From Kutzneria kofuensis (GTDB lineage Bacteria; Actinomycetota; Actinomycetes; Mycobacteriales; Pseudonocardiaceae): DNA of 64,000 nucleotides. The notes under the pieces were generated by a model. The model was not told the DNA's origin. It saw only the letters and a list, made by a program, of their open reading frames with translations, and made no database searches. The stretch is taken from positions 8,310,038 to 8,374,037 of the forward strand of contig NZ_JACHIR010000001.1 of the NCBI RefSeq assembly GCF_014203355.1, written 5' to 3'. Position numbers and translations under genes: made by a program. Positions within the stretch are counted from its first letter, which is position 1; each line of letters begins with the position of its first letter. Shown here one piece after another: positions 1-24,360 of this stretch.

Positions 1-1347
1 GGCCAACCGGACCAGGTCCACAGCGCGCCGCGCCAGATCGCTCAGGTCCACCGGTGCACGCATCTCCACCTGGAGCATCGTCGTTTCCTCGCCGTCCCAG
101 ACGGGACCGATCTCGTAGACCTTGTCCATGCCGCCGACCACGGCGAGCTGGTGGTGCAGCTGCGCGGACCGCCGGCGGGCCAGCCCCTCCGTGACGAGGT
201 CGGCGGGCACCAGGCACGGTGTCTGGATCTCGGCGAACCCCTCCGCCGCCAGCTGGTCTCGCCAGTGCGTCAGGACACGTGCGCGGTGCGCCAGCAGCCC
301 GGGGTCGTCTGGTGGTCGCCAGCTGACGACGGGTGGTGGTGCGGTCAGCGCCGTGATGACCTCCTCGGTCCACTCGCCGACGATCCGGCGCGCCTTGTTC
401 ACCGACTGCTTGCGTGCGGACAGGTTGCTGGCGGCGTCCTCGGACAGGTGGTCGATGCCGACGACCTCTGCGGTCGTCGTGGCGTCGAGCTGCCGGGTGA
501 TCGACGGCGAGGACATGTCGATCAGCAGGTGCCGCTCGGTCAGGTGGCCGAACAGCTTGCCCGCGTACGCCACCGTCTCCGGAGTGTTGGTCAGGCACAG
601 CACGATCACGTCCGCCTCGGCGATGCGGTCGAGATCGCCCCAGTCGACCTCGCGCGCGGCCCCGGCCTTGCCGGGCGTCCGGTTGCACGCGAACACCTCG
701 TGGGCGGTCTCCTTGCCGAGGATCTCGGCGATCAGCCGACCCGTGCGGCCGAGCCCGACCACGGCGACGGACCGGGCCGACGTGACCCGGGCGATGCGTG
801 AGCAGGCGACCCGCTCCAGGGAGACGTTGCCCTGTTGCAGCGAGGTGGTGGTGCGGACCGCGTGCAGCAGCGGACGCAGCCGGCGCGCGAGGAGGGTGAA
901 CGCGGAGTCCTGTCGTCCGGCCGTGCGGGCCTCGGCGAGGCCGGCGACGACCTGGGCGTAGACCTGGGAATCGCCCAGCACCACGCTGTGCAGGCCGACC
1001 GCGACCTCGCCGAGGAACTCGACGGCCTTGGCCCCGCAGTGGTGTTCGACCCGCGGCAGGTGCGGGCCGAGTCCGGGCGCGAGATCGAGCCACCGTCGCA
1101 GCAGCAGATCGCGGGCGAAATGCCGGTCGGTCGGCACGGCGAAGGTCGCCGCCACCATGATCGCGTTGCACTTGTCGATCACCGCGAGGTCGTCGACTGG
1201 GGCGCCGAGTCCACGGCGGAACAGTTCCGAACGGGACGTCTCGTTCCCGGCCGAGATGTGCGCGGCGGCCAGCTGGTCGAGCGCGTCCCGGTTCAGCTTG
1301 CGATGTTCCAGGGCCACGACCTGGAAGCGCGTGCCCGACTCCCCCAT
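1..1347 (-). CDS. Glutamyl-tRNA-reductase-like / class II aaRS-like fusion (partial)
   Basis: The reading frame is open for 449 codons and runs off the left edge, so the C-terminus is missing. Residues 1-330 resemble glutamyl-tRNA reductase (HemA): an N-terminal catalytic region with the conserved cysteine (about C60, in VIDKCN), the GLHSVVLGDSQV stretch (about 120-131), and an NAD(P)-binding domain with VAVVGLGRTG (about 194-203) and CNRT. The usual TCNR motif reads KCNA, so the Cys-Asn are kept but the Arg is lost. From about residue 345 the sequence resembles class IIb aminoacyl-tRNA synthetases (Asp/Asn/Lys type): RARVLTHWRDQL, GFAEIQTPCLV, QLAVVGGMDKVYEIGPVW. At motif 2 the usual RAE is DGE and the following loop is missing. 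HemA reduces glutamyl-tRNA to glutamate-1-semialdehyde. The fusion and its position beside an NRPS cluster suggest a specialised tRNA-dependent step rather than haem synthesis (inference). An upstream in-frame ATG at 1389 is possible, but 1347 fits the family N-terminus better. Confidence 0.75.
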   Translation of the reverse strand, partial: MGESGTRFQVVALEHRKLNRDALDQLAAAHISAGNETSRSELFRRGLGAPVDDLAVIDKCNAIMVAATFAVPTDRHFARDLLLRRWLDLAPGLGPHLPRVEHHCGAKAVEFLGEVAVGLHSVVLGDSQVYAQVVAGLAEARTAGRQDSAFTLLARRLRPLLHAVRTTTSLQQGNVSLERVACSRIARVTSARSVAVVGLGRTGRLIAEILGKETAHEVFACNRTPGKAGAAREVDWGDLDRIAEADVIVLCLTNTPETVAYAGKLFGHLTERHLLIDMSSPSITRQLDATTTAEVVGIDHLSEDAASNLSARKQSVNKARRIVGEWTEEVITALTAPPPVVSWRPPDDPGLLAHRARVLTHWRDQLAAEGFAEIQTPCLVPADLVTEGLARRRSAQLHHQLAVVGGMDKVYEIGPVWDGEETTMLQVEMRAPVDLSDLARRAVDLVRLA

Positions 1348-1504
1348 AAACCGCCCCCCGGCAACTCCCGCCGCATGGGCGGGCGACATCCTCGAATCAG
1401 GAAAGATGTTGGCGGACAACCAGCCTGCCCGCATGGCCCCTCGGCGAGTCTAACGCAGACCGTTCCGCCGTCAAGGCCGCGCAATCCGTTGCTCGGCCAG
1501 GGAT

Positions 1505-2845
1505 CTAGACCCGCGCGGCGAGCCGGTTGCGGACGTGCAACGTGGTCGGCGAGCCGCCGCCGTCGAAGCCGCCGAACACCACGAAACCCGAGTGGTAGGC
1601 GAACCTGTGATCGTCCAGCTGGCGCAGCGGCGCGGGCGCCTGCACCGGCTCCTCGAGGTGATAGACGTTGTCGGCCAACAACTTCAGGCCGTCCGTCCCA
1701 TGTGGCTCGACCCGGTACGAGTGGTAGAGGTCGTGGGTGTACGTCCCGGCGTACTTGGCGATGTCCCGGTCTCCGGACGGCCCCGGCTCGGCGTGGCCGG
1801 GGACCGTGAGCCCGTAGAGCCGGTCGAGCATCGCCTGGGACAGGTCGATGCAGACGTGTTCGCCCGCCTCGGAGTTGACCAGTGCCGCGTAGCCGACACC
1901 GGTGTCCACGTCCATGGCGATACTGCCGCTGGTGCCGCGGCCGAACGACTGGTGGAGCAGTAGGTCACGCCCACCCCATGTGGCTAGTTGCCAGCCGAGC
2001 CCCTGACTCATGCCGGGCGCGAACGCCGCGTGGATGGGACGCTGGGCGCGGGTGGCCTGCACGCGGCTGGTCTCGCTGAACACGGGCTGGGTGGCGTCGA
2101 CCGCTCCCCGTCGGGTGTACAGGGCCGCGAGTCGCACAAGATCCGTTGTGCTGGCGAACATCCCGGCCGTCGCGGCGAGCCCGACCGGGCACGGGTCGGT
2201 GACCGGCACGACCGTGGCACTGTCCTCATCGAACCGATGCCCGATGCCGACGTGCCGGGCCAGCGCGCGTTCCGTGGTGGTGCACGCGCCGGTCATGCCC
2301 AGCGGGTCGAGAACACCGTACTGTACGGCGGTCTCCCACGGCATGCCCGTGACATGTTCGATCACCGCGCCCAGCACGATGAAGGCCGTGGTGCTGTAGC
2401 TGTGTTGCGTGCCCGGCCGGAACAGCAGCGGCGCGCGCAGGATGTGCCCGGTCAGCTCGGCCGCCGGCCGGTGCAGGTTGTCGTTCGCCTCGGGCGGCAG
2501 GTCGGCCAGGCCGCTCTGGTGCGACAGCAGGTGCCGCACCGTCAACCCGGCCGGCGCCGCGCAGTCGGCGGGCAGGTGGTCACGGATCTCGTCGTCGAGA
2601 CCGAGCCGGCCCAGGTCGCACAGCTGGAGCACCAGAGCGGTGGTCACCAGCTTGGTGTGCGACTCGATCCGGAACACGGTCTCCGGCCCGACCGGCACCG
2701 GCGCGACGACCGAGGTGACCCCGGTGGTCCAGGTGGTGATCCCGTGTTCGTCGAGAACACTCAGCGAGCCGCCGACCGCCTGGCGGTCGGTCACCATCTC
2801 GACGAAAAGTGCCTCGATTTCGGCCTGTTCCTGCGGTGATGGCAT
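1505..2845 (-). CDS. Serine beta-lactamase/DD-peptidase-family hydrolase
   Basis: A 446-residue protein of the class C beta-lactamase / penicillin-binding-protein-like esterase family. The nucleophile motif SxxK is seen as SHTK at about residues 60-64. It is followed by the family's YST element (HSYSTTAFIVLG) and by a HQSFGRGTSG stretch where the third active-site motif normally falls. No signal peptide is evident at the chosen start, so a cytoplasmic hydrolase or esterase is more likely than a periplasmic lactamase. The frame stays open far upstream, but that extension overlaps the divergent NRPS gene. The start at 2845 (MPSPQEQ) is chosen because AAAGGGAAA precedes it and homology begins there. 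It lies upstream of the tRNA-reductase-like gene on the same strand and could be co-transcribed with it. A role in product release, maturation or self-resistance is inference. Confidence 0.85.
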   Translation of the reverse strand: MPSPQEQAEIEALFVEMVTDRQAVGGSLSVLDEHGITTWTTGVTSVVAPVPVGPETVFRIESHTKLVTTALVLQLCDLGRLGLDDEIRDHLPADCAAPAGLTVRHLLSHQSGLADLPPEANDNLHRPAAELTGHILRAPLLFRPGTQHSYSTTAFIVLGAVIEHVTGMPWETAVQYGVLDPLGMTGACTTTERALARHVGIGHRFDEDSATVVPVTDPCPVGLAATAGMFASTTDLVRLAALYTRRGAVDATQPVFSETSRVQATRAQRPIHAAFAPGMSQGLGWQLATWGGRDLLLHQSFGRGTSGSIAMDVDTGVGYAALVNSEAGEHVCIDLSQAMLDRLYGLTVPGHAEPGPSGDRDIAKYAGTYTHDLYHSYRVEPHGTDGLKLLADNVYHLEEPVQAPAPLRQLDDHRFAYHSGFVVFGGFDGGGSPTTLHVRNRLAARV

Positions 2846-2871
2846 CGGTTTCCCTTTGTTGCCAGAGAGGT

Positions 2872-2896
2872 TTCGGGCAGTGTACGCTCGCCCGAA
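2872..2896. promoter_or_regulatory. Inverted repeat with N11 spacer, StrR-type operator candidate
   Basis: In the divergent promoter between the hydrolase (start 2845) and the first NRPS (start 3053), TTCGGGC (2872-2878) and GCCCGAA (2890-2896) form a perfect inverted repeat separated by exactly 11 bp. StrR-family activators bind half-sites of the type GTTCGACTG-N11-CAGTCGAAC, and a StrR/ParB-like regulator is encoded at 7742. The link is inferred. Confidence 0.6.
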
Positions 2897-3052
2897 CCTG
2901 GCCACCGGCACTTTGGGAAAGCCGACCCGGTCGAGACGCTGCCACAAGGGGGGAACCATGTGGAGTAGTTCTGTTCGTGCTGCTCGAAGATTGTTCGGGG
3001 GCGATTCGTCCGCATCGGGCGGTGGACCGATCGCGCTCTGGGAGGCGCCCCT

Positions 3053-6000
3053 GTGAGCGGGGCTCGCATTCTGCCGAGTTCGCTCGCGCAGCAGCGTTTG
3101 TGGGTACTGAACCGGCTTGAGCCTCGCGATGCCGCCGACGTCGTGGTCTCGGTCTGGGAGACCGACGCCCCGCTCGACGTCGACGGGCTGGCCGCTGCGG
3201 CCCGTGACCTCGCCCGTGACCACGAGGTGTTGCGTACGGTGCTGCGGTCGGTGGACGGTCATGTCCGGCAGCTCGTGCTGGACCCGGCGCCGGACGTGGT
3301 GATCATCTCCCGCCCGGCGCGGTCGGTCGACGACGCCGTCGCCGTCGAGCTCGACGACGGATTCGATGTCGAATCGGGCCCGCTGTGGCGAATCTCCCTG
3401 GCACGGTTGGACGGTGATCGTCTGCTGTTCGTCGTGGCGATGCACGCGGCGATCGCCGACCAGCGGTCGGCCGACCTCGTCGCACGGCAGCTGATCGAGC
3501 CGAGGTCTTTGTCCGGTGTGGAAACCTCGACGTCACAGTCGATCTCCCCGGCCGAGTTCCTGGACCTCGTCCGGCGGCAGGGCGATGCCGACGAGGCGGC
3601 CGTCGAACTCCTCGAACACTGGCGATCACTTGTCACGAGCCGGCCGCCGGTGATCGACCTGCCGAGTGACCTGCCTCGGCCCAAGCTGCCGGTGCACCGC
3701 ACGCGGCGAATTCCCTTGGCAGTGGACGAGGCCCGGCTGGCGCAGCTCGACGCGCTCGCGACCTCGTGCGACACGACCGTCGACGTCGTCCTGCTCACCG
3801 CCTGTGCTCTGACCATCCGGGCGTTCAGCCAGCGGGACGAGTTCGTGCTCGGAGTCTGGCACGATCACCGGCGCGACGGCGCCGGGCGCGCCCTGGGCCC
3901 GTTCACCGACATCCGGCCGGTCGCTGTGGACCTGTCCGATGTGCCGTGCGTCCGGGACCACGTCACGCAGCTGCGAGATCAGACCAGGGACCAGATGACC
4001 GTCCCCTTCGGACGCTTGGTGGAGGAGCTCGGCGTCGCCCGTGACCCGGGGCGGCATCCGCTGGTGCAGGTGGCGTTTTCCTATCTGGACAGAACCGCCG
4101 CGCAGCGGTGCGCGCCGGTGTCGACAAAGGTCGGTGCGAGCCGGCTCGACCTCGAGTTCCTCGTCGAACGCTGCGCCGACGGTCCGCGGGCCCTGTTGTC
4201 GTACGCGACCGATGTCTTCGACGCCGGCACCATGACCGCGATGGCGCGGACCTTCGACCTTCTAACAGCCGCTCTTGCCGGCTCGGCCGAGTCCGAATTG
4301 TCCTACGTGGACGATGAACACTCCGCGGCCGGTGCCGCTGCCACTCCGAGCGCCGCGGCCGGACACACGACCGTCGTGCACCTGGTGGACGAACAGGCAC
4401 GGAATGCCCCCGACACGGTGGCTTTCGTGCACGGCACGGTCACCTGGACCTACCGTCAGCTCGTCGAACGATCCGAAGCGCTGGCTGACGCCCTGATCGA
4501 CGCCGGTGTCGGCGACGGGGACATGGTCGTCGTGCACGGCCACCGGCGGCCGGACCTCATCGCCGGCTACCTGGCTGTGCTCCGGATCGGTGCGGCGTAC
4601 GTGCCGATCGGGCCGGACATGCCGAGCGCCCGGCTGGCCGGGATCCTGGCCGACGCCGGGCCCAAGGTGGTGCTCACCGACCAGCCGGACGTCCCCGACG
4701 GTGCGTGGCGCTGCCTGCCGCTGGACGCCGAGGCCGCGACCCCGGCGCCCGGGAACCGGTCACGCCCGGGTGAGGTGGCCTATGTGTGCTACACCTCGGG
4801 GTCCACCGGCAAGCCCAAGGGCGTGGCGATCGAGCACGCGGCCCTCAGCCATTTCGTCGCCTGGTACCTGGACGAGTACCGGCTCGGCCCGTCCGATGTG
4901 GTCAGCTGGGCGACCGGCATCGGGTTCGACGCCTCCGTCGGCGACATCTGGCCGTCACTGGTCGCCGGGGCGACCATCGTGCTGCCCGAGGACGAGTTGC
5001 TGCGGTTGCAGCCGGAGGCGTTCGCCCGCTGGCTGGACGACGCCGGCGTGACGGTGTGCTTCCTGCCCTCCCCGCTGGCCGAGGCGTTCCTGGACAACAC
5101 CGACCCGGAGCAGGTGCCGCGGCTGCGCTTCTTGCTGACCGGCGGTGACAGGTTCAACCGCCGGCCCTCGCCCGCGGCCTCGTACCGCGTGGTCAACCAG
5201 TACGGACCGACCGAGAGCACGGTCTGGTCGACCTTCAGCGTGGTGTCCGCCTCCGGTGACGGCGCGCCGACGATCGGAACGCCGATCCCGAACGTCACGG
5301 CCTACGTGCTCGACGGGCGGCGGCGGGTGCTGCCACGAGGCGCCTTCGGCGAGCTCTACCTCGGCGGGCCGCAGGTCGCGCGGGGGTACCTGAACCGGCC
5401 GGAACTCTCGGCCGAACGCTTCGTGCCGGACCCGTTCGCCGCGCAGCCGGACGCGCGCATGTACCGCACCGGGGACATCGTGCGCTGGACGGCGGCCGGC
5501 GAGCTGCAGTTCCTCGGTCGGTCGGACGGGCAGGTCAAGATTCGGGGCGTGCGGATCGAGCCGGCCGAGATCGAGGCCGTGCTGCTGAGTCATCCCGCGG
5601 TACGGGAGGCGGCCGTGGTCGCGCGCCCGGGTCGGACCGGGCAGCTCGAACTCGTGGCCCACTTGGTCCCGGGCGTGCACGGGGTGGCAACCGCCGACCT
5701 GGCAGCGCTGGTCAAGCAGTGTCTTCCCCAGGCGTTCTGGCCATCGGCGTACCTGCTCACCGACCGCTTCCCGCTCAGCGCCAACGGCAAGCTCGACCGA
5801 ACCGCGCTTGCTGCTCGACCTCTGCCGGATGAGGCGCTACCCGGTTCGACACGTCCACCCGAGGGGCCGGTCGAGGAACTCGTCGCTCGCGTGTGGACGA
5901 AGGTGCTCAACCGGGACCGGATCGGCGCCGAGGACAACTTCTTCGCCCTCGGCGGCGATTCGCTGCTGGCGATCCAGGTGGTGTCCCAACTGGCTGCCGA

Positions 6001-7090
6001 CGGCATGCGCGTGCGGCTGATCGACGTGTTCGACCAGCCGACGGTCGCCGAACTCGCCGCTGTGGTCGGCCGCGATGAGGCCGTCGCGGTGACACCGGTG
6101 ATGCGTGCTACGGGCGCGGCGCTCGCCGTGGGCGCGCCGGTGGGCGGTCGGGTGCACGTCGTCCAGGTGCCTGACGGCATCGACACGAACGAGATCGTGA
6201 ACGAGGCGCGGCGAGTGGCTTCCCGGCATGACGGGTTGCGTCTCCGGTTCGACCCCGACGGGCCGTCCGCGACTCTGTGCGGCGATGGCGTCGTGCACGT
6301 CGAGGCGTGCGACGACGAGACGACCACAGTGGACGAGCACGCCGCCCGGCTCGGGGCCATGACAACCCGTTTCGACGGCCCGGTGCTGGCGATCGTGCAC
6401 ATGCGTGCCGCGAGCCAACTGGTCATCGCCGCTCATCCGCTGTGCGTCGATCCGGAGTCCTGGCCCGTGTTGCTCGCGGAGCTCGCGGGTGGAACTCCTG
6501 GTGCCGGCACGGGAAAACCGTGGTTGGCCGCTGCCAACGAGGCCTACCGCACCACCACGGTCGAGCTGCTCGTCGCCGCCGCGGTGCTGGCGGTCGGCGA
6601 ACGTCATGGCTGGTCCGACATCACGGTGGAGGTCGACAGCGACGGCCGCACGGATGGGGTCCCAGCGGTCGGACTGCACACCGCACGACGGCGTGTCGCG
6701 CTCAGCGTGGCCTCCGATGTCGCCGGCGTGATCACGGAGGCCAAGAACGCACTGCGGTCGCCCGAGAGTGGGGAACGCGCGGCCGGCGCACATACCCTGC
6801 GCCTGACCTACCACGATCCGCAGTGGGCGGACCTGCCGGCCGGGTGGCGGCGCATCCGGGAGATACGCCTGCCCACAGCGCAGGCCCACGACCTGGAGGT
6901 CGAGGTGACACCCGGTGAACCGAGTCCGGGTGTCGTGGCCTCGGATCGCTTCGAGGACGCCTTTCGGACGGCGTTGACGGCCGTGCTGGACCACTGCTCG
7001 AGTGTCCGCCCTGGTCAGTTCACCGCATCGGACTTCCCGCTTTTCAGCCTGGTCAAGCCGAAGGTGGCGGAACCGCGTCGATCACGCTGA
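3053..7090 (+). CDS. NRPS: C(divergent)-A-T-epimerase-like
   Basis: A 1345-residue nonribosomal peptide synthetase starting at GTG 3053 behind GGAGGC. The domain order is condensation (about 1-430), adenylation (about 440-920), thiolation (about 935-1010) and a short epimerisation-type domain (about 1020-1345). The C-domain HHxxxDG motif is altered to MHAAIADQ (about 129-136), which keeps the second His and the Asp. The A domain is intact: YTSGSTGKPKG near 576, YGPTES, YRTGD, and LSANGKLDR with the A10 lysine. My reading of its specificity residues is D-A-G-F-L-G-Q-V-W, a hydrophobic pocket without a firm substrate call. The carrier site is LGGDS near 966, as usual before an epimerase. The last domain has AHPLCVDPESW near 1126, matching the epimerase HHLVVDGVSW signature with the first His replaced, and ends in the epimerase-like SDFPL. 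The domain is about 100 residues short, so activity is uncertain. Confidence 0.93.
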   Translation: MSGARILPSSLAQQRLWVLNRLEPRDAADVVVSVWETDAPLDVDGLAAAARDLARDHEVLRTVLRSVDGHVRQLVLDPAPDVVIISRPARSVDDAVAVELDDGFDVESGPLWRISLARLDGDRLLFVVAMHAAIADQRSADLVARQLIEPRSLSGVETSTSQSISPAEFLDLVRRQGDADEAAVELLEHWRSLVTSRPPVIDLPSDLPRPKLPVHRTRRIPLAVDEARLAQLDALATSCDTTVDVVLLTACALTIRAFSQRDEFVLGVWHDHRRDGAGRALGPFTDIRPVAVDLSDVPCVRDHVTQLRDQTRDQMTVPFGRLVEELGVARDPGRHPLVQVAFSYLDRTAAQRCAPVSTKVGASRLDLEFLVERCADGPRALLSYATDVFDAGTMTAMARTFDLLTAALAGSAESELSYVDDEHSAAGAAATPSAAAGHTTVVHLVDEQARNAPDTVAFVHGTVTWTYRQLVERSEALADALIDAGVGDGDMVVVHGHRRPDLIAGYLAVLRIGAAYVPIGPDMPSARLAGILADAGPKVVLTDQPDVPDGAWRCLPLDAEAATPAPGNRSRPGEVAYVCYTSGSTGKPKGVAIEHAALSHFVAWYLDEYRLGPSDVVSWATGIGFDASVGDIWPSLVAGATIVLPEDELLRLQPEAFARWLDDAGVTVCFLPSPLAEAFLDNTDPEQVPRLRFLLTGGDRFNRRPSPAASYRVVNQYGPTESTVWSTFSVVSASGDGAPTIGTPIPNVTAYVLDGRRRVLPRGAFGELYLGGPQVARGYLNRPELSAERFVPDPFAAQPDARMYRTGDIVRWTAAGELQFLGRSDGQVKIRGVRIEPAEIEAVLLSHPAVREAAVVARPGRTGQLELVAHLVPGVHGVATADLAALVKQCLPQAFWPSAYLLTDRFPLSANGKLDRTALAARPLPDEALPGSTRPPEGPVEELVARVWTKVLNRDRIGAEDNFFALGGDSLLAIQVVSQLAADGMRVRLIDVFDQPTVAELAAVVGRDEAVAVTPVMRATGAALAVGAPVGGRVHVVQVPDGIDTNEIVNEARRVASRHDGLRLRFDPDGPSATLCGDGVVHVEACDDETTTVDEHAARLGAMTTRFDGPVLAIVHMRAASQLVIAAHPLCVDPESWPVLLAELAGGTPGAGTGKPWLAAANEAYRTTTVELLVAAAVLAVGERHGWSDITVEVDSDGRTDGVPAVGLHTARRRVALSVASDVAGVITEAKNALRSPESGERAAGAHTLRLTYHDPQWADLPAGWRRIREIRLPTAQAHDLEVEVTPGEPSPGVVASDRFEDAFRTALTAVLDHCSSVRPGQFTASDFPLFSLVKPKVAEPRRSR

Positions 7091-7222
7091 TCGGTTCGGG
7101 TCACCGGCTGTACGAATTGTCCCGTTCGGCGCATGGTTGATCGTTTCCGGCGGATCGAATCGCTGGTTTTCCACTGGTTCGCGGCCCGCCGGAGGCATCG
7201 GCGCGCGCGGCAAGATCATAAC

Positions 7223-7248
7223 TGCGCACGTCGGTGGTGTCGTGCGCG
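7223..7248. repeat. Inverted repeat downstream of first NRPS
   Basis: TGCGCACG (7223-7230) and CGTGCGCG (7241-7248) pair over at least 7 bp around a 10-bp spacer. It has no T-tract, so it could be a weak terminator for the NRPS transcript or a protein-binding site for the next promoter. Confidence 0.4.
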
Positions 7249-7415
7249 CATCGATGTGAGCTGGGTGTTCGGCCACGGAGCTGAGCACTGCTCGTGATCA
7301 TGCTCGCCGCCGGCGGTCACGGTTCGATCGGCGGAAATCGCTTCACCACCGAGACAGCAACGGGTCGGCCTGTTATGGTCGAGCCATCGCTGTCACGGAT
7401 TTTCGGGGGGCAACA

Positions 7416-7490: not shown

Positions 7491-7502
7491 CCGGCTCAGC
7501 GC

Positions 7503-7741: not shown

Positions 7742-8695
7742 ATGCCCACGTTGCGGGTGGTGCCCGATCCCGTCGTCACGACGGTGCCGATCGACACGTT
7801 GCGGCCGGGGGAGCAGGTCCGGTCGGACGGTGAGGACGAGCACCATGTCGCGATGCTGGCCGAGTGCGGCCAGCGACTGCCGCCGGTGCTGGTCGATCCG
7901 GCCACCATGAGGGTCATCGACGGGATGCATCGGCTGAGCGCGGCGAGGCTGCGCGGTGAGAGCCACGTGGACGTCGAGTTCTTCCACGGCACCAGCACGG
8001 ACGCCTTCATCGCCGCGGTGGAGCGCAACACCGTGCAGGGGCTCCCGCTGAGCCGCAAGGACCGGTTGAGCGCGGCCGCCAGGATCGTCGCTTCGCGTCC
8101 ACAGTGGTCGAATCGGGTCATTGCCGCTAAGGTCGGCCTGTCGGACAAGACGGTGGCCGCAGTGCGACAGCGTTCGTCCTCGGACATTCCGCAGACGAAC
8201 GTCCGGCTCGGCCGGGACGGCCGGGCCCGACCCGCCGACATCAGCGCCGGCCGAAAGCGCGCCGCCGAGTTCATCATGGACAACCCGCAGGCATCGCTGC
8301 GCGAGATCGCCGCGGCCGCGGGCATCGCGGTCGCCACCGCGCGGGATGTGCGGATCAAGGTCCAGGACGGCGTCGATCCGGTCGGCCGGCGGTGCGGTGG
8401 GCGACCGGCCGGCGGCGACACGCGCCGGCGAACCGACGACGCCCCGCCCGATGTCGCCGAGCTGGCAAGGGTCTTGTCCCAGCTGCGCACCGATCCGACC
8501 CTCCGCTTCACGGACGCGGGACGCATGGTTCTGCGCCTGCTGGACGCCCACCAGGTCGAGGCGCGCAACTGGCGCAGCCTGCTGGACCGGCTGCCGGCGC
8601 ACTGCGTCACCAGGCTCGCGGACGCCGCCCGAAACTGCGCGCAGACCTGGCAGTTCGTCGAGTCGTACCTGCGTGACCGCACGGTCGAGGGTTGA
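7742..8695 (+). CDS. StrR/ParB-type pathway-specific transcriptional activator
   Basis: A 317-residue protein with an N-terminal ParB/sulfiredoxin-like domain (VPIDTLRPGEQVRSDGE, then LPPVLVDPATMRVIDGMHRLSAA) followed by a helix-turn-helix (VIAAKVGLSDKTVAAVRQR) and a second HTH-like element (SLREIAAAAGIAVATARDV). This layout is that of the StrR/NovG/Bbr family, which activate antibiotic clusters by binding long inverted repeats. The frame is open from 7547, but ATG 7742 is chosen because GATGAGGAAA sits at the right distance and the conserved region begins there. It lies between two NRPS genes in the same direction. It probably acts on the divergent promoter at 2846-3052, where an N11-spaced inverted repeat is seen, and perhaps on its own promoter. 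Confidence 0.88.
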   Translation: MPTLRVVPDPVVTTVPIDTLRPGEQVRSDGEDEHHVAMLAECGQRLPPVLVDPATMRVIDGMHRLSAARLRGESHVDVEFFHGTSTDAFIAAVERNTVQGLPLSRKDRLSAAARIVASRPQWSNRVIAAKVGLSDKTVAAVRQRSSSDIPQTNVRLGRDGRARPADISAGRKRAAEFIMDNPQASLREIAAAAGIAVATARDVRIKVQDGVDPVGRRCGGRPAGGDTRRRTDDAPPDVAELARVLSQLRTDPTLRFTDAGRMVLRLLDAHQVEARNWRSLLDRLPAHCVTRLADAARNCAQTWQFVESYLRDRTVEG

Positions 8696-16600: not shown

Positions 16601-16851
16601 GGGGGCGAGTACTGGGCCGGGACGACACGACCGCGGACACCAACTTCTTCCTGCACGGCGGGCATTCGTTGCTCGGCATCTCGCTGCTGCGTCGCCTTCG
16701 GGAGGCGACATCGGTGCGGGTACGGCTCGCGGAACTGTTCGCGAACCCCACGCCCCGGGACATGTTGACCAGGTTGTCCGGATCTGACGCCGGTAAGCAG
16801 TGGCCGGCGGAAGCGCCCGGCGCGACATCACCTCGTGGGGGGACACGGTGA
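13678..16851 (+). CDS. NRPS: C-A(Gly)-T module
   Basis: A 1057-residue single elongation module. The condensation domain (about 1-430) has an intact HHLVFDG near 140. The adenylation domain has IYTSGTTGVPKG near 607, FDISALEL, YGPTETT, YRTGDLARWD and a terminal VTANGKLDRK. Its specificity residues read D-I-L-Q-L-G-V-I-W, very close to the known glycine code. The carrier protein has HGGHSLLG near 994. The ATG overlaps the stop of the preceding NRPS by ATGA, and its own stop overlaps the PKS start by GTGA. The expected role is to add glycine to the chain delivered by the previous NRPS and pass it to the polyketide synthase. Confidence 0.94.
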   Translation: MNVGLPPSPTARAGESVTTRENSLWLLNHLVPDSGVSNIALAFGVDSRLRWWPLQAAVSQLLRRHEVLRTTYHDRAGTLTRTVLPADEAVVDVDIVQVDSQRLDDELTAFAAVPFEPDGGLLVRAALFLCPAGDVFCLVAHHLVFDGRSVSIATRELVELVTAAAAEQPVPPALTGEVPAPVHREPARSTVEYWRQALDGVDGASTALSVGDEPSVQSDLRGGRILHHFGERAHAAVAELRAGLRASDHVILLAVFQALLVRHGAGPDVVVGCPVDIRGPADADTIGYLINTIAVRQQVTADTPFAELVRRTRATFLEAISHADASIDAVLAELPRQVAGWKSTVFRHMFNFMDVGDRTSGPLDRIGARGVDVHNGFSRFDFEFFVQRGAKGTTVRALYGADAFTAAEIELLLQRYEALLTAATAAPDSPIGLLDVFGELDRQLIDAANDTEAPVPVDTVPGMIARWVLERPDAAAVVEAGRTVSYRQLWSRVQDVATRLRACGVGPGSIVGVAGERSADLVAAVLGVLLCGAAYLPLDPEHPHRRFGQVIENSGVDVVIGDATALGAQGDALADLTTVPLTDDGSADPAPVAVEDASLMDGPAYVIYTSGTTGVPKGVRISHRSLANTVVHFGRLLGADGPLSTVWQTSFTFDISALELFLPLAHGAALVVADDVTRSDGAAFLDLVGRHDVRVVQATPTSWHQLLGDQDVQLAGRVLLCGGEPLTPALARRLTATGARVFNVYGPTETTIWSTCAELDRTGVDDVHVGRPIANTTVFIADESGRELPVGPVGELCIAGAGVAEGYHRADELTADRFGSHGTHGRFYRTGDLARWDVAGRIRLVGRADRQVKIRGNRIELDEIESVLQEHPEVTAAAVVLERAGEPDARLVAVVQAQDRPGLAADLWAHARAALAPAAVPQEFRVAARLPVTANGKLDRKAALVALPALTEAVQRPEPTDERLRNRLELLVRLWGRVLGRDDTTADTNFFLHGGHSLLGISLLRRLREATSVRVRLAELFANPTPRDMLTRLSGSDAGKQWPAEAPGATSPRGGTR

Positions 16852-19800
16852 CCGAACTTCTCGAACCCATCGCGGTCATCGGCATGGCCGGGCGGTTTCC
16901 CGGCGCACGCGACGTGACGGAGTTCTGGGACGTCCTCGCGGGCGGCGTCGAGTGCGTCAGGTCGGCCTCGGCCGACGAGCTGCTGGCCGTCGGCGTGCCG
17001 CCGTCGGCCCTCGATCACCCGGACTACGTTCCCGCGATCGCCCTGCCCGACGGCCTCACCGACTTCGACGCCGGCCTGTTCGGCTTCACGCCCCGCGAAG
17101 CGACCCTGTGCGATCCGCAGATCCGGCTGTTCCTGGAGACCGCCCACGCCGCGCTCGAGAACGCCGGCTACGCACCCGATCGGCTGGACTCGGTCGGCGT
17201 CTTCGGCTCTGCGGGCGTGAACCGCTACCACGAGGTGTACGGCCGATCGGCGGCCGATGAGCTGCGCAGCGCGTCCGGCATGTCGATCGGCACTCTCAAC
17301 AACCCGGACTACGTCGGCACCCTCGTGTCGTACAAGTTCGGCTTCCGTGGTCCGAGCATGACCGTGCAGACGGCGTGCTCCAGCAGCCTGGTCGCCGCGC
17401 ACCTGGCCGCGCAGGCGCTGCGTTCCGGCGAGTGCGACATCGCCGTTGCCGGCGGCGCGGATGTGGAGCTGCCGCTGGGACACGGGCACTGGTGGGCACC
17501 GGGCAGTCCGCTCAGCAGGGACGGTCACTGCCGGCCGTTCGACGCCGGGGCGACTGGCACCGTCTTCGGCAGCGGCGCCGGCGTCGTGGTGCTCAAGCTG
17601 CTCTCCGACGCGCTGGCGGACGGTGACGAGATCCATGCCGTCATCCGGTCCTCGGCGATCAACAACGACGGCTCGGACAAGGTCGGGTTCAGCGCGCCGA
17701 GCGTGCGCGGCCAGGCCGCCGCGGTGGTGGAGGCCATGGAGATGGGCGGCTTCGTGCCGTCGGACATCTCCTATCTGGAGGCGCACGCCACCGGCACCGA
17801 ACTCGGCGACCCGGTGGAGCTGGAGGCCCTCAACCAGGCATACCGGCAGTTGGCCGGCGACGACTTGACGCCGGGGCTTGTCCCGATCGCCTCGGTGAAG
17901 GGCAACGTCGGCCACCTCGGCCACGCGTCCGGGGTCACGTCGCTGATCAAGGTCGCGCTGGCGCTGCGCAACGAGCTGATCCCGGCCAGCGTGAACTTCA
18001 CCGCGCCGAACCCGAAGCTCCCCCTGGACGGATCGCCGTTCGTGGTCAACGACCGGGCTCGGCCCTGGCCCACCGCGGCCCATCGACCGCGGCTGGCCGG
18101 CGTCAACTCGCTCGGCATCGGCGGCACGAACGTGCACATGATCGTCGGGGAGGCGCCCGCCGTCACGCCGACGTCGACCGATGACCGACCCCGTCTGGTC
18201 GTCTGGTCGGCGAGGACCCGAGAGGCGCTCGACGCCTACCGACCGGCGCTGGCCGATCACTTCCGCACCATGGACACGGACCGGTTCGACGACGCTGTCG
18301 CGACGCTGCAACGGGGCCGCACCGAACACGCCGAGCGGGCCGCGGTCGTGGTGACCGACGCGGCAGATGCCGAGCGGGCGGTGCGGTCGTGGTCCGCGCC
18401 CGCTCGGACCACTGTGGACACCGTCGGCTTCCTGTTGCCGGGCCAGGGGACACAGTATGCGGGGATGGCGCGCGAGCTGTACGACCGCGACCAGACCTTC
18501 CGCGCGACCTTCGACGAGTGCCTGGACAACCTGCGGACCCACGGCGCCGACGTCCGCGAGCACTGGATCGCCGCGGACGACGCCGAACTGGCCGACACCC
18601 GCCTCGCCCAACCTCTGCTGTTCGCCGTGGAGTACGCACTGGCCACCATGTGGCAGGCGTGGGGGGTACGCCCGAACTGGTTGCTCGGCCACAGCATCGG
18701 TGAGCTCACGGCGGCGGCGGTGGCCGGTGTCGTCGATCTGCCGGACGCCGCGGCGCTGGTCGCCGGACGGGCAAGGTCGATGGCCGCGGCGGAGCCGGGG
18801 GCGATGCTCGCCGTACGTGCCAGCGAGGACGAGATCGCCGCGCACCTGTCCGACGGCGAGCTGAGCATCGCAGTGGTCAACGGGCCGCGTCAGGTCGTGC
18901 TGGCCGGTGCCGAGGACCGCATCGACGCCTGCGCTGGGCGGCTGCGCGACGCCGGCATCGCGGTGCGTCGGCTCAGGACGTCACACGCATTCCACAGCGG
19001 CCGCATGCGCGCGGCGGAACCCTCGTTCCTCGCCGCGTTCGCCGGAGTCGCGCTGCGCGCGCCTCGGATCCCGATCGTGTCCGCGGCCACCGGTGCCCCG
19101 ATCAGTGACGAGCAGGCGACCGACCCGATGTTCTGGGTGGGCCAGTTGAGCCGGCCCGTGCTGTTCGGACAGGCGTTGGACACCGCGTTGGCCGACCGCT
19201 CCGCGCTGGTGGTCGAAGTCGGTCCCGGTCGCGTGCTCACCGAACTGGTGGGCGACCGAGCGGTGGCTGTGCCGTCGTTGCCGTCCGAAGCCGGCAGCGA
19301 CTGGCAGGCCGTGTTGGACGCCGTGGGCACGGTATGGCGCCATGGCACGAGCGTCGACTGGTCGGCGATCGACCAGGACCGGCCGCTGCGTCGCACCGTT
19401 GTGCCCGGCTACCGGTACGAGCGCCAGCGCTACTGGCTGGACCCGGTGGCGGCGCCGACCGAGGCGGAGCCGCAGGAGGTCGTGGCCGAGGGACCGGCGG
19501 CAGGACCCGGACCCGTGGTGACGGGCGTGGCCAGTGAATTCACCGTGCCCACCTGGGTTGTCGTCGATCCCGTGCAGGGCAACGACTTCGAGCACGGCGA
19601 CACGGCCGTGGCGCTGCTGCCGTCCGACCGGGACAGCGCGGTGGAGCTCATGGTGGCGATGCAGCGCGCCGGGTTGCGGGTGGTGCCGCTCTACGAGTCG
19701 ACGGAGTTCCGCGCGCTGCCGGACGGCTACGAACTCGGCGCCGATGTCGACGCCGGGGTTGAGCGTGCACTCACCGACCTGGCCGCGCGTGGCGTCGCCG

Positions 19801-22145
19801 TGCGGCTCCTCGTGCACGCGCTCGGCGCGGCCGGGTGGGAGGCGCCGAGCACCCGGTCGGTCGACCGGCAACTAGCCCAGTCCTTCCACAGCCTGCTGTC
19901 CCTGGTCCGGCACGGTCACCGGCATGCCCTCGGTGCTCTGCCCGGCGTCGTCGTGGTGACACGGAACTCGGTGGACGTTTCCGGCGACGAGGGCACGGAG
20001 CCGGTCAAGGCGACGATGCACGGGGCGATGCTCAGCCTCGCCGAGGAGGAGCCGCGCGCCAGCTACAAGCTCGTCGACCTCGGACGTTCCGTGGACGAGG
20101 ACCTGCTGGTGGCCGAACTGTGCGCGAGTGGGCGCACCGAGTTCGTCGCACTGCGCGGGGCACGCCGGTGGCTGCGCGGACTCCGGCCGTTCGAGGCTTC
20201 GCCCGGCGGTGACCGCACCTTGCGTCGCAACGGCGTCTACCTGATCACCGGCGGTCTCGGCGGCCTCGGTCGGGCCGTCGCGAGGGAGCTGGCGGGTACC
20301 GGGCTGCGCCCGACTCTGTTGCTGCTCGGGCGGTCCGCCGAGGCCGATGACACCCGGTATCGGGCCGAGATCGAAGCCTGGGAACGGATGGGCAGCCGCG
20401 TCGCGGTGCTGCAGGCGGACGTGACCGACGTCCGCGGGCTGCGCCGGGCCCTGGACATCGCGGCCAGCAGGTACGGCGCGGTGAACGGCGTGTTCCACCT
20501 CGCCGGCGTGCCGGGCGACGGGATGCTGCACGTGCGCTCCGTCGCCGATGCCGAGCGGGTGCTGGCCCCCAAGGTGAAAGGCACCCTCGTGCTGGCCGAG
20601 GTGCTGGCCACCCGGCCGGCGCTCGACTTCTTCGTCGCTTTCTCCAGTCGAGCGGCCCTGGCCGGGCATCGCGGCAGCGGCGACTACGCCGCGGCCAATG
20701 CCTTCCTGGACGCGTTCGTCGTGACCGACGCGTTGCCCGGGTGCAGGAAGATCAGCATCAACTGGCCGGCGTGGCACACCGTCGGTATGGCGGTGCCCGC
20801 GCCGCCGGCCGGAGTGGTCCGTTGGCGGACCACCCTGCGCCCGGACGCGTGCCCGGTTCTCGACGAACATCGGATCAACGGCCGGGCGCTGCTGCCCGGC
20901 ACCGGTCACCTGGACCTGATCGTCCGTGCGTACCGGGAAACCGTCGCCACCGACGAGGAGATGGCCGTCCGGGTCGAAGACGTCGTCTTCCAGCGGCCCT
21001 TCGTGGTCCTCGCCGCGCTCGACTGGGAGATCGACTTCGAGCCTCACGCGGCGGGCGGACACCTGTTCCGAGTGTGTTCGCAACTACCGGGCGAGGACCG
21101 CGTGGTGCACGTCCAGGGGCGGATCGGCGCGTGCGCCTCCGATCCCGAGCCGTGCGACCTCGACGCGCTGCGCGACCGGATGCCGGACACGCAGCCGCCG
21201 CCGCGACGGCTGCCGGGACGGCGGATGTTTCTGCTCGGCCCGCGCTGGTCGAACGTGACCGCGATCCGGACGGGCGGGGGATCGGCGTCGGAAAAGCTCG
21301 TGTCGCTCGCCCTGCCCGAGGTCTTCGCCGCGGAGGCCGGGGACCACTGGCTGCACCCCACCCTGCTCGACTCGGCCACCGCACACGCGAGGGACACGAC
21401 CGACGGCTTCTTCCTGCCGTTCGGCTACGAGTCGGTGACCGTGCACGGCCGGCTCGGGCCGGAGTTGGTCAGCCACATCCGCCGTCAACCCGGCGGCGAC
21501 GAGCTGATCCGGGCGGACGTCGACGTGCTGGATCCGCACGGTCGCCTGGTCGTGGCCGTCACCGGCTTCACCATGCGCCGCGTCACCGACACCGCGTTCG
21601 CCGACCAGGAGCCGGTGGCGACGGTGGCGGCGGATGAGGAGCCGGCCGGCATCGATCCCGACACCGGCACCAGGATGCTGCTGCGGCTGCTGGACTCGCG
21701 CCCGCCCCGGCAAGTTGCCGTGAGCAGGCACCGCGGCGGTCGGCCCGTTCCGGAGGACCTCGCGCTGTCCGTGACCCACGTGGCACCACCCGCCGTGGCC
21801 GAGCCCGTGCACACCGCCCGACCCGTGGTCGCCGAGGCGACTGCGCCCGAGACGATGGCGCTCCGGCCGACGCCGGACACCAGCGCGACAACCACTGCGG
21901 AACCGGCGGCGCCGGACGGCTCCCTCGTCGGGCGGGTGACCGCGGTGTTCGCCCGGTCGCTGGGCATCCCGGGCGTCGACGCCGGTGACGACTTCTTCGA
22001 GCTCGGCGGCAATTCGCTCACCGCGGTCGAGGTCATGAGCCAGATCCGCAAGGAGTTCGCGGTCGACCTGAGCATCGCGGCGCTGTTCGACTACCCGACG
22101 ATCGGACAGCTCGCCGAGGAACTCCAACGGCGGGGCGTCGCGTGA
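16848..22145 (+). CDS. Type I polyketide synthase: KS-AT-KR-DH-ACP
   Basis: About 1765 residues from GTG 16848, which overlaps the previous stop (GTGA) and follows GGGGGG. The ketosynthase has TACSSS near 174, EAHATGT near 313 and KGNVGH near 353, so Cys-His-His are intact. The acyltransferase has GQGTQ, GHSIGE near 614 and HAFHS near 714, the pattern of malonyl-CoA-specific domains. The ketoreductase has ITGGLGGLG near 1134 and the Ser-Tyr-Asn set (FSSRAA, GDYAAAN near 1279). The dehydratase follows it, with DEHRINGRALLPG near 1340 and LLDSATAHA near 1507. The ACP carries LGGNS near 1719. KR before DH is unlike the usual actinobacterial DH-ER-KR order. The predicted chemistry is addition of one malonate unit, reduction and dehydration, giving an alpha,beta-unsaturated acyl chain after glycine. 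There is no thioesterase. Confidence 0.95.
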   Translation: MTELLEPIAVIGMAGRFPGARDVTEFWDVLAGGVECVRSASADELLAVGVPPSALDHPDYVPAIALPDGLTDFDAGLFGFTPREATLCDPQIRLFLETAHAALENAGYAPDRLDSVGVFGSAGVNRYHEVYGRSAADELRSASGMSIGTLNNPDYVGTLVSYKFGFRGPSMTVQTACSSSLVAAHLAAQALRSGECDIAVAGGADVELPLGHGHWWAPGSPLSRDGHCRPFDAGATGTVFGSGAGVVVLKLLSDALADGDEIHAVIRSSAINNDGSDKVGFSAPSVRGQAAAVVEAMEMGGFVPSDISYLEAHATGTELGDPVELEALNQAYRQLAGDDLTPGLVPIASVKGNVGHLGHASGVTSLIKVALALRNELIPASVNFTAPNPKLPLDGSPFVVNDRARPWPTAAHRPRLAGVNSLGIGGTNVHMIVGEAPAVTPTSTDDRPRLVVWSARTREALDAYRPALADHFRTMDTDRFDDAVATLQRGRTEHAERAAVVVTDAADAERAVRSWSAPARTTVDTVGFLLPGQGTQYAGMARELYDRDQTFRATFDECLDNLRTHGADVREHWIAADDAELADTRLAQPLLFAVEYALATMWQAWGVRPNWLLGHSIGELTAAAVAGVVDLPDAAALVAGRARSMAAAEPGAMLAVRASEDEIAAHLSDGELSIAVVNGPRQVVLAGAEDRIDACAGRLRDAGIAVRRLRTSHAFHSGRMRAAEPSFLAAFAGVALRAPRIPIVSAATGAPISDEQATDPMFWVGQLSRPVLFGQALDTALADRSALVVEVGPGRVLTELVGDRAVAVPSLPSEAGSDWQAVLDAVGTVWRHGTSVDWSAIDQDRPLRRTVVPGYRYERQRYWLDPVAAPTEAEPQEVVAEGPAAGPGPVVTGVASEFTVPTWVVVDPVQGNDFEHGDTAVALLPSDRDSAVELMVAMQRAGLRVVPLYESTEFRALPDGYELGADVDAGVERALTDLAARGVAVRLLVHALGAAGWEAPSTRSVDRQLAQSFHSLLSLVRHGHRHALGALPGVVVVTRNSVDVSGDEGTEPVKATMHGAMLSLAEEEPRASYKLVDLGRSVDEDLLVAELCASGRTEFVALRGARRWLRGLRPFEASPGGDRTLRRNGVYLITGGLGGLGRAVARELAGTGLRPTLLLLGRSAEADDTRYRAEIEAWERMGSRVAVLQADVTDVRGLRRALDIAASRYGAVNGVFHLAGVPGDGMLHVRSVADAERVLAPKVKGTLVLAEVLATRPALDFFVAFSSRAALAGHRGSGDYAAANAFLDAFVVTDALPGCRKISINWPAWHTVGMAVPAPPAGVVRWRTTLRPDACPVLDEHRINGRALLPGTGHLDLIVRAYRETVATDEEMAVRVEDVVFQRPFVVLAALDWEIDFEPHAAGGHLFRVCSQLPGEDRVVHVQGRIGACASDPEPCDLDALRDRMPDTQPPPRRLPGRRMFLLGPRWSNVTAIRTGGGSASEKLVSLALPEVFAAEAGDHWLHPTLLDSATAHARDTTDGFFLPFGYESVTVHGRLGPELVSHIRRQPGGDELIRADVDVLDPHGRLVVAVTGFTMRRVTDTAFADQEPVATVAADEEPAGIDPDTGTRMLLRLLDSRPPRQVAVSRHRGGRPVPEDLALSVTHVAPPAVAEPVHTARPVVAEATAPETMALRPTPDTSATTTAEPAAPDGSLVGRVTAVFARSLGIPGVDAGDDFFELGGNSLTAVEVMSQIRKEFAVDLSIAALFDYPTIGQLAEELQRRGVA

Positions 22146-22146
22146 C

Positions 22147-24360
22147 ATGACCGCGATCATCGACGTGAAACCGGAGGCGGCGGGGCATCTCGTCGACCTG
22201 ACCGAGGGCTGGTCGTTGTGGCGGCAGGCCGTGCTGCGCTCCGCCGGCATGCCGTTCGAATGGCTGTCCTGCCTGTCGGACGAGACGTTGTCGGCGCGGG
22301 ACCGGATCGCCCGGCTGCTCGGGCACGAACGGTTCCTGGAGGCGTTGACCTGGCAGAGCCCGGCCGTCGTCGCCAACTGGGTGGGCGACTACCTGGCGAC
22401 GGGCCGGCTGGCCCGGGCCGGGCAGCGGGAGGCGCTGCTGGCCCGGTACGCGCAGCGCTACTGCGCGAAGAACGACACCATCGGCTTTTTCGGTCCCGTG
22501 GCCTGGGCGGAACTCGACGAGGCCGGCGACCCGCTCGAACTCCATGGCACGGTCGAGACCAGGCGCCATAGCGTGCATCTGGAAAGCTGGGCGGTCGCGC
22601 TCGTCGCCAACTCATGGCCGCGGGAGCAGCAGCCGGTGCGCGTGCACCCGGCAGTGTCGTGGCGAGACTCGTGGGCCTGGCGTCCGCGACGACGACCGCA
22701 CCAACTTTCGCCGCTGGCGGCGGAACTCTTGGCCCGAGCTCGTGACCAGTCGCTGCGTGCGCTGGTCGCCGAGGTCACGGCGGGCACAGGTGTCGAGCCA
22801 GCGTCGGTGGCAGCCGAGATCGACCGGTTGGTCGAGGCGGACGTGCTGGTCGTGGGCTACCGCGTGCCCCTCGACGGTGAACCCGAGAGGCACCTGCGCG
22901 CCGACGTCAGCCGGGTCGCCGACGAGCCGGACCGCCAAGGAATGCTCGCAACCCTCGACCGGCTGAGCGGGTTGCGTGAGCGGCTCGGTGAAACGGTGGG
23001 CCGGCCGGCGGAGGTGTACGAGGCCCTGACCGAGCTGACCGCCGGCGTTGCCTCCGCCAGCGGCCTGGACCGGGTCGACGCCGCCCGAAGCGGACAGGGT
23101 GGCCGCGCTGTGGCCTATCTGGACAGTCGGCGGGACCTCGACGTGGTGATCGGCGGGGAACTGATCGACAAACTGCGCGAGCCGCTGGGAATCGCGCTCG
23201 ACGCCGCTCGTTGGCTCGCCGCGGAGGTGGGCGACGCGGTGGAGGAGCTCCTCTGGCAGCGGTACACGGAGCTCGCCGCGAGCGCCGACCCGGTGCGGCT
23301 GTGTGACCTGCAGTTCGCGGCGGCGGACGTGCTTTCCGGCGCTCCGGGTACCGTCGTCCACGACGTCGCCGAGGACTTCCTGCTGCGGTGGAAGGAAATC
23401 CTGGCGGCGGGCGAGCATACGGACGACGGCCGGGAGATCCGGCTCGACCTCGCGGCTGTCGCCCCTCTCGCGGCCGTCCTGTTCCCGCGTCGCGAGCCCC
23501 GGTGGCAAGCCGCCCGGTGCCACAGCCCGGACCTCATGCTCGATCACCACGGCGGGACCTGGCGTTGGGTACTCGGCGAGTTGCACGTCGGCCTGAACAC
23601 CATGGAGAACCGGGTGTTCCACAACCAGGCCGACGATCCGGCCCGCCTCGCCGCGGCCGTCGCCGCCGACATGTCGGCCGGGCGGATGGTCGCGTTGCAG
23701 CCGTGGAACTCGCCCGAGGTCAGCTCGCGCACGTATCCGCCGCTGGCGGTGCACGTGCCCGACAGGTACGTGTACTGGTCGTTCGGCAACGACGTGGGCT
23801 CGCCGGCCGGTGCCGCGCTGCCCGGCACCGAACTGCTGGTCATGGCCGACGGCGACAGGTTGGCGGTGCGCCCGGAACGCGGCGGCTGGCAGGCGTCGCT
23901 GCTGGAAGCGTTCGGCGAGTTCCTGTCCGCGCTCGTGGCCGACCGGTTCGCGATCCTCGCCGCCGACCAGCACCAGCCGCGCGTCTGTCTCGGCGACCTG
24001 GTGCTGCGGCGGGAATCCTGGACGATCGCCGCCGCGGACATCGTGGCGTGCGCGGGCCCGGGCCGGCTGCGCGCGCGGCTGACCGAACTCGGCGTGCCGG
24101 TCCACTTCTTCGCCCGCACGCCGGCCGAACGCAAGCCGTTCTACGTGGACATGCGGTCGACAGCGCTGTTGGCCAACGTGACGAGGGCAGCGCGGTTGTG
24201 CGAAGGGGCTCAGGTGGTGATGAGCGAGATGCTGCCCGGTCCCGAGGGACTGTGGTTGCGCGACGACGCCGGCAACGGCCACACCGCGGAGTTCCGGGTG
24301 GTGGCGGTCGACGAGGCCGCGGCGCCGCCGGTCGTATTCGAGCGCGACGGGGGACGGTGA
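22147..24360 (+). CDS. LanB-type dehydratase N-terminal (tRNA-dependent) domain protein
   Basis: A 737-residue protein starting one base after the PKS stop. It resembles the N-terminal domain of LanB lantibiotic dehydratases, which in characterised members uses glutamyl-tRNA to glutamylate Ser/Thr. The segment RYCAKNDTIGFFGPVAW (about 101-117) corresponds to the family's R-x-TPFG region. Later family-like features are FPRREPRWQAARCHSPDLML, WVLGELHVGLNTMENRV and RESWTI. The C-terminal elimination domain (SpaB_C) is absent, and no separate copy or precursor peptide is visible nearby. Standalone proteins of this size include split-LanB glutamylation enzymes and PEARLs, which add an amino acid from aminoacyl-tRNA. 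Its location inside an NRPS/PKS operon suggests action on a carrier-bound or released peptide, for example on the Thr residue or at the C-terminus. That is inference. Confidence 0.8.
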   Translation: MTAIIDVKPEAAGHLVDLTEGWSLWRQAVLRSAGMPFEWLSCLSDETLSARDRIARLLGHERFLEALTWQSPAVVANWVGDYLATGRLARAGQREALLARYAQRYCAKNDTIGFFGPVAWAELDEAGDPLELHGTVETRRHSVHLESWAVALVANSWPREQQPVRVHPAVSWRDSWAWRPRRRPHQLSPLAAELLARARDQSLRALVAEVTAGTGVEPASVAAEIDRLVEADVLVVGYRVPLDGEPERHLRADVSRVADEPDRQGMLATLDRLSGLRERLGETVGRPAEVYEALTELTAGVASASGLDRVDAARSGQGGRAVAYLDSRRDLDVVIGGELIDKLREPLGIALDAARWLAAEVGDAVEELLWQRYTELAASADPVRLCDLQFAAADVLSGAPGTVVHDVAEDFLLRWKEILAAGEHTDDGREIRLDLAAVAPLAAVLFPRREPRWQAARCHSPDLMLDHHGGTWRWVLGELHVGLNTMENRVFHNQADDPARLAAAVAADMSAGRMVALQPWNSPEVSSRTYPPLAVHVPDRYVYWSFGNDVGSPAGAALPGTELLVMADGDRLAVRPERGGWQASLLEAFGEFLSALVADRFAILAADQHQPRVCLGDLVLRRESWTIAAADIVACAGPGRLRARLTELGVPVHFFARTPAERKPFYVDMRSTALLANVTRAARLCEGAQVVMSEMLPGPEGLWLRDDAGNGHTAEFRVVAVDEAAAPPVVFERDGGR

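Follow-up and report, generated by a model that had tools for sequence, protein, structure and literature searches.

What this locus asks is whether two genes from families that use aminoacyl-tRNA, set among the same modular biosynthetic genes, serve one pathway. The window, a stretch of 64,000 nucleotides of Kutzneria kofuensis DNA (GCF_014203355.1, contig NZ_JACHIR010000001.1, positions 8,310,038 to 8,374,037), comes from a contig of 8.7 Mb, one of five that make up a genome of 10.4 Mb. The first gene crosses the left edge of the window on the reverse strand, from 1434 to base -455 (L003:17482-19371:-), and encodes a 629-residue fusion of a part like glutamyl-tRNA reductase (GluTR) with a part like aspartyl-tRNA synthetase (AspRS), as identified by Pfam and NCBIfam. 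The second (22147..24360, forward strand) encodes a LanB-like protein of 737 residues. An earlier note on this DNA had described these genes as a HemA-synthetase fusion and the LanB-like end of a megasynthase run, bracketing one assembly line. Both identifications held, and Pfam confirmed nonribosomal peptide synthetase (NRPS) and polyketide synthase (PKS) genes and one regulator-like gene between them. Chance open reading frames are an unlikely account of these genes, given the uninterrupted frames, the codon statistics and the family matches. Our best explanation, to which we give a probability of about one half, is that one hybrid NRPS/PKS cluster recruited two separate aminoacyl-tRNA-type enzymes, a ligase of the peptide aminoacyl-tRNA ligase (PEARL) type and an aminoacyl reductase. 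The chemistry, the substrates and the role of the fusion in the product are read from sequence throughout.

Extent of the thiotemplate cluster

Genes in the part of the contig to the left of the window were called from codon statistics and then scanned with Pfam. The NRPS/PKS cluster extends from about -24 kb to +28 kb in window coordinates, with its left start near -24.4 kb and the true edge uncertain. The fusion could thus lie within one cluster or between two, and a genome of Saccharothrix sp. ALI-22-I (G127:C43/L066) bears on this. A single run there holds homologues of the E1 component (61% identical), the E2 component (51%), the A-T-C-A-T synthetase (38%), the PKS (52%) and the LanB-like protein (48%). 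The same run encodes a C-ACP protein with 57.5% identity to the cluster ACP over 66 residues and a LAL_C2 ATP-grasp protein with 27% identity over 242 residues to that of Kutzneria. Because homologues of the parts of this one run flank the fusion on both sides in K. kofuensis, the thiotemplate genes are, by this comparison, one cluster and not two, with the fusion inside it. This supports the earlier placement of two genes from aminoacyl-tRNA-using families in one thiotemplate cluster. Neither the fusion nor the class I lysyl-tRNA synthetase (LysRS-I) encoded nearby had a blastp match (E<=1e-8) in the 51 kb of the Saccharothrix genome examined.

The GluTR/AspRS-like fusion and the class I LysRS

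The fusion starts at ATG 1434, with ATG 1389 or 1347 also possible. Pfam matches cover GlutR_N (6.9e-9, residues 42-189), Shikimate_DH/Rossmann (3.7e-8, 216-331) and tRNA-synt_2 (1.8e-20, 380-614), and the NCBIfam models for hemA (9.6e-26) and archaeal-type AspRS (1.8e-21) match far below their curated cut-offs (90.7 bits against 209.55 for hemA). The GluTR-like part was compared with 10 distinct sequences, nine GluTRs from the phylum and the genome's own HemA. All ten have the same catalytic Cys (Cys89 in the fusion) and Rossmann glycines, and the TCNR motif of the fusion reads KCNA, with Ala for an Arg that 10/10 GluTRs have. In GluTR this Arg recognizes Glu. The fusion therefore resembles HemA (PDB 1gpj) in its Cys and Rossmann glycines but differs in the lost Arg and in the missing C-terminal dimerisation domain, whose place is taken by the AspRS-like catalytic domain.

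The AspRS-like part was aligned with L149, L150 and PDB 3nel. It has the class II catalytic domain, the PPHGGF stretch and the motif 3 Arg (DRL) of the archaeal-type non-discriminating AspRS (3nel and the genome's own L154, to which the fusion is 27% identical) and keeps the motif 2 Glu; unlike these enzymes it is without the anticodon-binding OB-fold domain. About 11 residues are deleted after motif 1 and about 9 from the motif 2 loop. The motif 2 FRAE reads WDGE, with Arg replaced by Asp447, and two motif 3 glycines read Arg and Ser. QSPQxxK reads RSAQLHH (Lys to His428) and GGQR reads GGLH (Arg to His569); we take the lost Lys and Arg to be residues of the Asp pocket. Speculatively, a metal could be bound by the two His and the one Asp that stand in for pocket residues. 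Directly downstream of the fusion, an ATP-grasp gene with a LAL_C2 match overlaps its stop by 4 bases, which suggests co-translation of the two.

From these features we infer that the fusion is an aminoacyl reductase with a degenerate synthetase domain, making an amino aldehyde. In such a reaction the NADPH-dependent enzyme would accept the aminoacyl group of an aminoacyl ester on Cys89, and a hydride would convert the resulting thioester to the aldehyde. The AspRS-like domain, standing in the place of the dimerisation domain, may hold the dimer, the acceptor end of the tRNA, or both, and the aldehyde would feed the ATP-grasp ligase encoded next to it. A fuller version, in which the aldehyde comes from aminoacyl-tRNA that the AspRS core only holds, LysRS-I possibly supplies that tRNA and the ATP-grasp enzyme joins the product onward, would give the cluster two tRNA-dependent steps together with the PEARL-type ligase; we put this version forward tentatively and consider it unlikely as a whole. 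If the fusion does reduce aminoacyl-tRNA, GluTR chemistry, which to our knowledge is tied to haem-type tetrapyrrole biosynthesis, would enter natural-product assembly and open a new way for enzymes to make amino aldehydes.

The LysRS-I gene (L003:14604-16283, forward strand) lies within the cluster, where it converges with the ATP-grasp gene, and its position suggests recruitment to the cluster, either as a source of lysyl-tRNA or as a resistance copy. It is the only such match in the genome, which also encodes a class II LysRS, a bacterial AspRS and the archaeal-type AspRS. The occurrence of both LysRS classes in one organism is known (the consulted part of PMC1475646). That the enzyme is a self-resistance copy against a product inhibiting the class II LysRS, and not a supplier of lysyl-tRNA, is possible if somewhat doubtful. 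The presence of the class II enzyme and the absence of LysRS-I from the six other genomes of the genus (1/7, own only) agree with it, as do the LysRS-I motifs HLGN and KMSS, which look intact by eye. On the other side, no product is known, and LysRS-I is scattered over 29 of 249 family genomes, own included. Contexts of 20 kb were taken from 7 of the 28 other genomes, and in none of the seven did a LanB or fusion homologue lie beside LysRS-I, which also speaks against this role and leaves LysRS-I as a conserved partner of the two enzymes unsupported. One context (L175, in G143) carries two ATP-grasp genes (L175:15631-18068), 28-33% identical to that of the cluster, about 5 kb from a LysRS-I 76% identical to the cluster's.

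The fusion might instead be a decaying or non-enzymatic paralogue that came to lie in the cluster by chance, which we regard as quite unlikely. Several family-defining residues are lost, and relatives of the fusion were sought in a series of overlapping genome samples, with few candidates scored per genome in each search. The fusion was present in 1 of 297 genomes of the family (E<=1e-20), 1 of 298 of the order (E<=1e-12) and 1 of 133 of the class (E<=1e-15), each time the genome of K. kofuensis itself. In the phylum sample 11 of 396 genomes matched at E<=1e-12, namely its own and ten that matched the GluTR part only, with HemA-like length. In a further genus with large genomes from this class, presumably Streptomyces, none of 343 genomes had it (E<=1e-18, a search without positive control). 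None of nine plasmid records reached 80% query coverage, the matches being partial and of hemA or aspS type, and a pattern scan of genome contigs that demanded full identity to one of six stretches of 8 residues, and so reaches close relatives only, returned no fusion. Twenty genomes with LanB relatives, including those of the two closest relatives outside the genome (L066 and L067), also had no fusion, again in a search without positive control; three matches at E<=1e-6 in these genomes were on inspection two ordinary AspRSs and one HemA. Absence from these samples is not absence from nature. What argues against decay is a 629-residue frame without a stop, codon use like that of the cluster, the retained catalytic Cys and the overlap with the ATP-grasp gene.

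A further alternative keeps the reductase but dispenses with tRNA, the AspRS-like domain adenylating an amino acid and handing it to Cys89 for reduction to the aldehyde. It would account for an activating fold and a reductase in one chain that has no anticodon-binding domain, and for the retained motif 3 Arg and motif 2 Glu. The class II synthetase residues of motifs 2 and 3 usually bind ATP, and the loss of the motif 2 Arg to Asp, the shortened motif 2 loop and the two replaced motif 3 glycines make this alternative improbable.

The fusion is a genuine open reading frame, and its architecture appeared in neither the sampled genomes nor the searched papers. The open-licence PMC literature searched gave no report of a GluTR-synthetase fusion in such a cluster, and the words reductase, hemA and GluTR have no occurrence in the available part of a 2026 review of aminoacyl-tRNA-dependent natural-product enzymes (PMC12945691).

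The LanB-like protein and the PKS module beside it

The LanB-like protein matches Lant_dehydr_N (2.9e-18) over residues 61-361, which makes it homologous to the glutamylation domain PF04738. Relatives (E<=1e-30) occur in 43 of 249 family genomes, own included, and apart from the query just three of those matches exceed 40% identity (G127, G246 and a second copy on the genome's own contig C4). A scan of genome contigs with alignment A1 confirmed at least 391 relatives; counts over loci below refer to the best 80 of these. For alignment A2 the window protein was joined by 36 sequences chosen from the 80 loci. R104, D462, E478, R612, R622, E715 and R717 are invariant in all 37 sequences; F655 is nearly so, and R31 is present in 32.

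By spacing, R104, D462, E478, R612 or R622, E715 and R717 fit R208, D558, E575, R715, E813 and R815 of BhaBCTrp, F655 fits F755, and R104 would correspond to the Arg (R208) that binds the 3'-CCA end. The ATP-site and tRNA residues of BhaBCTrp and TglB, including Y205, Q201 and R197 of the tRNA helix, are those described in the portion of PMC11962472 consulted. The elimination domain PF14028 was matched neither in the LanB-like protein nor among the scanned genes of the cluster, some small open reading frames lying outside the scan; a class I LanB dehydratase needs this domain. In the excerpt of PMC11212132 (Yu and van der Donk 2024), SnaE is required for the addition of Thr to a carboxylate in the threopeptin cluster. 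Because of the ATP-site residues placed by spacing, their invariance, the missing PF14028 and the SnaE precedent, the LanB-like protein is probably, like SnaE, a ligase dependent on ATP and aminoacyl-tRNA, and not a glutamylating dehydratase, an assignment that we hold with moderate confidence.

This bears on two parts of the earlier note. Glutamyl-tRNA, which it had named as the most typical substrate of the two families, finds no support as the likely substrate in either protein, the LanB-like one having PEARL-type ATP-site residues and the GluTR-like part having Ala for the TCNR Arg. The system as a whole had been offered as a candidate for an undescribed one. The combination of LanB with NRPS/PKS genes was already known, the excerpt of PMC11212132 reporting about 2000 NRPS/PKS biosynthetic gene clusters with LanB-annotated enzymes.

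Compared with what PMC11212132 says of SnaE in that excerpt, and without an alignment to the SnaE sequence, the LanB-like protein is likewise stand-alone, has no elimination domain and lies in an NRPS-PKS cluster with transporters. Unlike that cluster, the Kutzneria cluster has no ureido-forming C motif (EHHxxHDG), has many more genes and places a PKS module with KR and DH next to the ligase. A ureido setting like that of SnaE was ruled out by the absence of EHHxxHDG from the 89 proteins called in the cluster region. BhaBCTrp and TglB, whose ATP-grasp residues and 3'-CCA Arg were matched by spacing, act on ribosomal carrier peptides according to the part of PMC11962472 available; PEARL-type enzymes described in the sources consulted add Trp, Cys or Thr.

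The PKS module adjoins the LanB-like gene in related loci also. Fifteen loci (L066-L080) form a group with 40-48% identity to the window protein, the remaining 65 being at most 36% identical. In 13 of the 15 the LanB gene has a homologue of the window PKS no more than 400 bp away and in the same orientation, upstream in L066, L067, L068 (counted from a 109-residue piece at a contig end), L070-L074, L076, L078 and L079 and downstream in L077 and L080; in the two exceptions the distance is 6.2 kb (L069) and 4.0 kb (L075). Seven of the 65 distant loci meet the same distance with an alignment of more than 300 residues. The LanB-like protein is a new representative of an enzyme kind already in the literature, and its pairing with a PKS is notable; the adjacency points to PEARL-like ligases that form a clade linked to a KR- and DH-containing PKS module, unlike the ureido setting of SnaE. 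Neither half of the fusion had a match (E<=1e-6) within 10 kb, or up to the contig end, in any of the 80 loci, and nor did LysRS-I or the cluster ATP-grasp; 20 of these loci are shorter than 22 kb and ended by contig ends. The check on co-occurrence that the earlier note had called for therefore came back empty, here and in the 20 genomes with LanB relatives, and the two-enzyme bracket appears to be a one-off in the searched data, each enzyme seemingly recruited separately.

A second PKS-LanB pair occurs on the genome's own 228-kb contig C4 (L022:5497-13225), 41-45% identical to the window pair (PKS module 45%). Two LanB-like genes lie near each other in G126 (L024:10474-17890), with genes resembling an NRPS A domain and a carrier protein between them, and paired nearby LanB-like genes were also seen in several other family-genome matches. 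Some LanB frames reach about 2000 residues and match NRPS sequence (e.g. L064:8948-15010).

As a PEARL-type ligase, the LanB-like protein would act with the adjacent KS-AT-KR-DH-ACP module. Its ATP-grasp-like site would phosphorylate the carboxylate of an assembly-line product or intermediate, the amine of an aminoacyl-tRNA would attack, and hydrolysis of the tRNA would leave one amino acid added outside the thiotemplate.

Several observations weigh against reading the two proteins as such a ligase and an aminoacyl reductase. For the ligase, the PEARL residues were assigned from their spacing and their invariance in the family rather than from an alignment with a PEARL sequence. The tRNA-helix positions Q201 and R197 read L97 and Q93 (PEARL numbering from the consulted part of PMC11962472), and Y101 is present in only 32 of the 37 sequences of A2. 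With EHHxxHDG missing, the source of a free carboxylate is not evident, and neither tRNA nor amino acid specificity could be read. For the reductase, the GluTR match is weak (25-32% identity) and further candidates for the GluTR active site give little information: His132 and Gln157 match only 5 and 6 of the 10 distinct GluTRs, and the Glu of LGE found in 10/10 GluTRs reads Asp155. The fusion has no relative in the samples, so its residue changes cannot be checked for selection, and decay or other chemistry is possible.

The A2 profile matches TbtB (PDB 6ec7/6ec8), a glutamyl-tRNA-dependent LanB that uses no ATP in the description consulted, at 7e-12 (6ec7), mostly through a C-terminal stretch. 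The Y..R helix and the PRV..R..W, KP..D and E.LP stretches are common to TbtB and the LanB-like family, and with the single LanB-like sequence as query no LanB structure was matched. That profile match is what would favour a glutamyl-tRNA-dependent dehydratase half glutamylating a hydroxyl of the assembly-line product, which we consider very improbable, since the PEARL-type ATP-site residues are present in 37/37 sequences, PF14028 is missing from the scanned cluster genes, and the SnaE precedent, as excerpted, is one of peptide-bond formation.

Other genes of the cluster

To the left of the window, from about -24.4 kb, lie in order genes for an unknown protein, an APH-like protein, a FAD oxidoreductase, an A-T didomain and a KS-AT-ACP PKS. 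These are followed by 3HCDH, ACP, acyl-CoA dehydrogenase, HAD-family and methyltransferase genes, a set that presumably resembles a methoxymalonyl-ACP cassette. Next come a class IV aminotransferase, LigB, a short-chain dehydrogenase with an N-terminal LigA-like stretch (L003:7767-8771, adjoining the LigB gene), and E1 and E2 components with an ACP, which we take to resemble a glycolyl-ACP loading set. A stand-alone C domain (reverse strand), LysRS-I (forward) and then, all on the reverse strand, the ATP-grasp gene, the fusion and a hydrolase complete this side. The last is a PF00144 serine hydrolase/acyltransferase family gene (1505..2845) that lies upstream of the fusion and is read in the same direction; its start is uncertain, the frame being open to 3445 and the domain covering about 1861-2812.

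The genes that follow are on the forward strand. An NRPS of C-A-T order (3053..7090) ends in about 340 residues to which no Pfam family matched, and the HHxxxD motif of its C domain is degenerate, reading MHAAIADQ with the second His replaced. The probable regulator (7742..8695) has weak helix-turn-helix hits in Pfam and presumably is ParB/StrR-like, judged by eye. NRPSs of A-T-C-A-T (8795..13681) and C-A-T (13678..16851) order precede the PKS module KS-AT-KR-DH-ACP (16800..22145), in which no thioesterase matched. The usual order in a PKS module is DH and then KR, and Pfam places DH after KR here. The A-domain regions inspected yielded no specificity code that could be read with safety. Beyond the LanB-like gene are an ABC transporter ATPase (24392..25357), to which a gene near the LanB of G132 is 56% identical, an ABC-2 type permease (25357..26124) and a probable second permease (26121..26927), which has a 34% identical homologue in G132 and lies in frame with a longer open reading frame (25584-26927) that matches ABC2_membrane. 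After these comes a gene for a luciferase-like monooxygenase of the MupA/Atu3671 family (26931..27986; TIGR04020, 2.3e-129).

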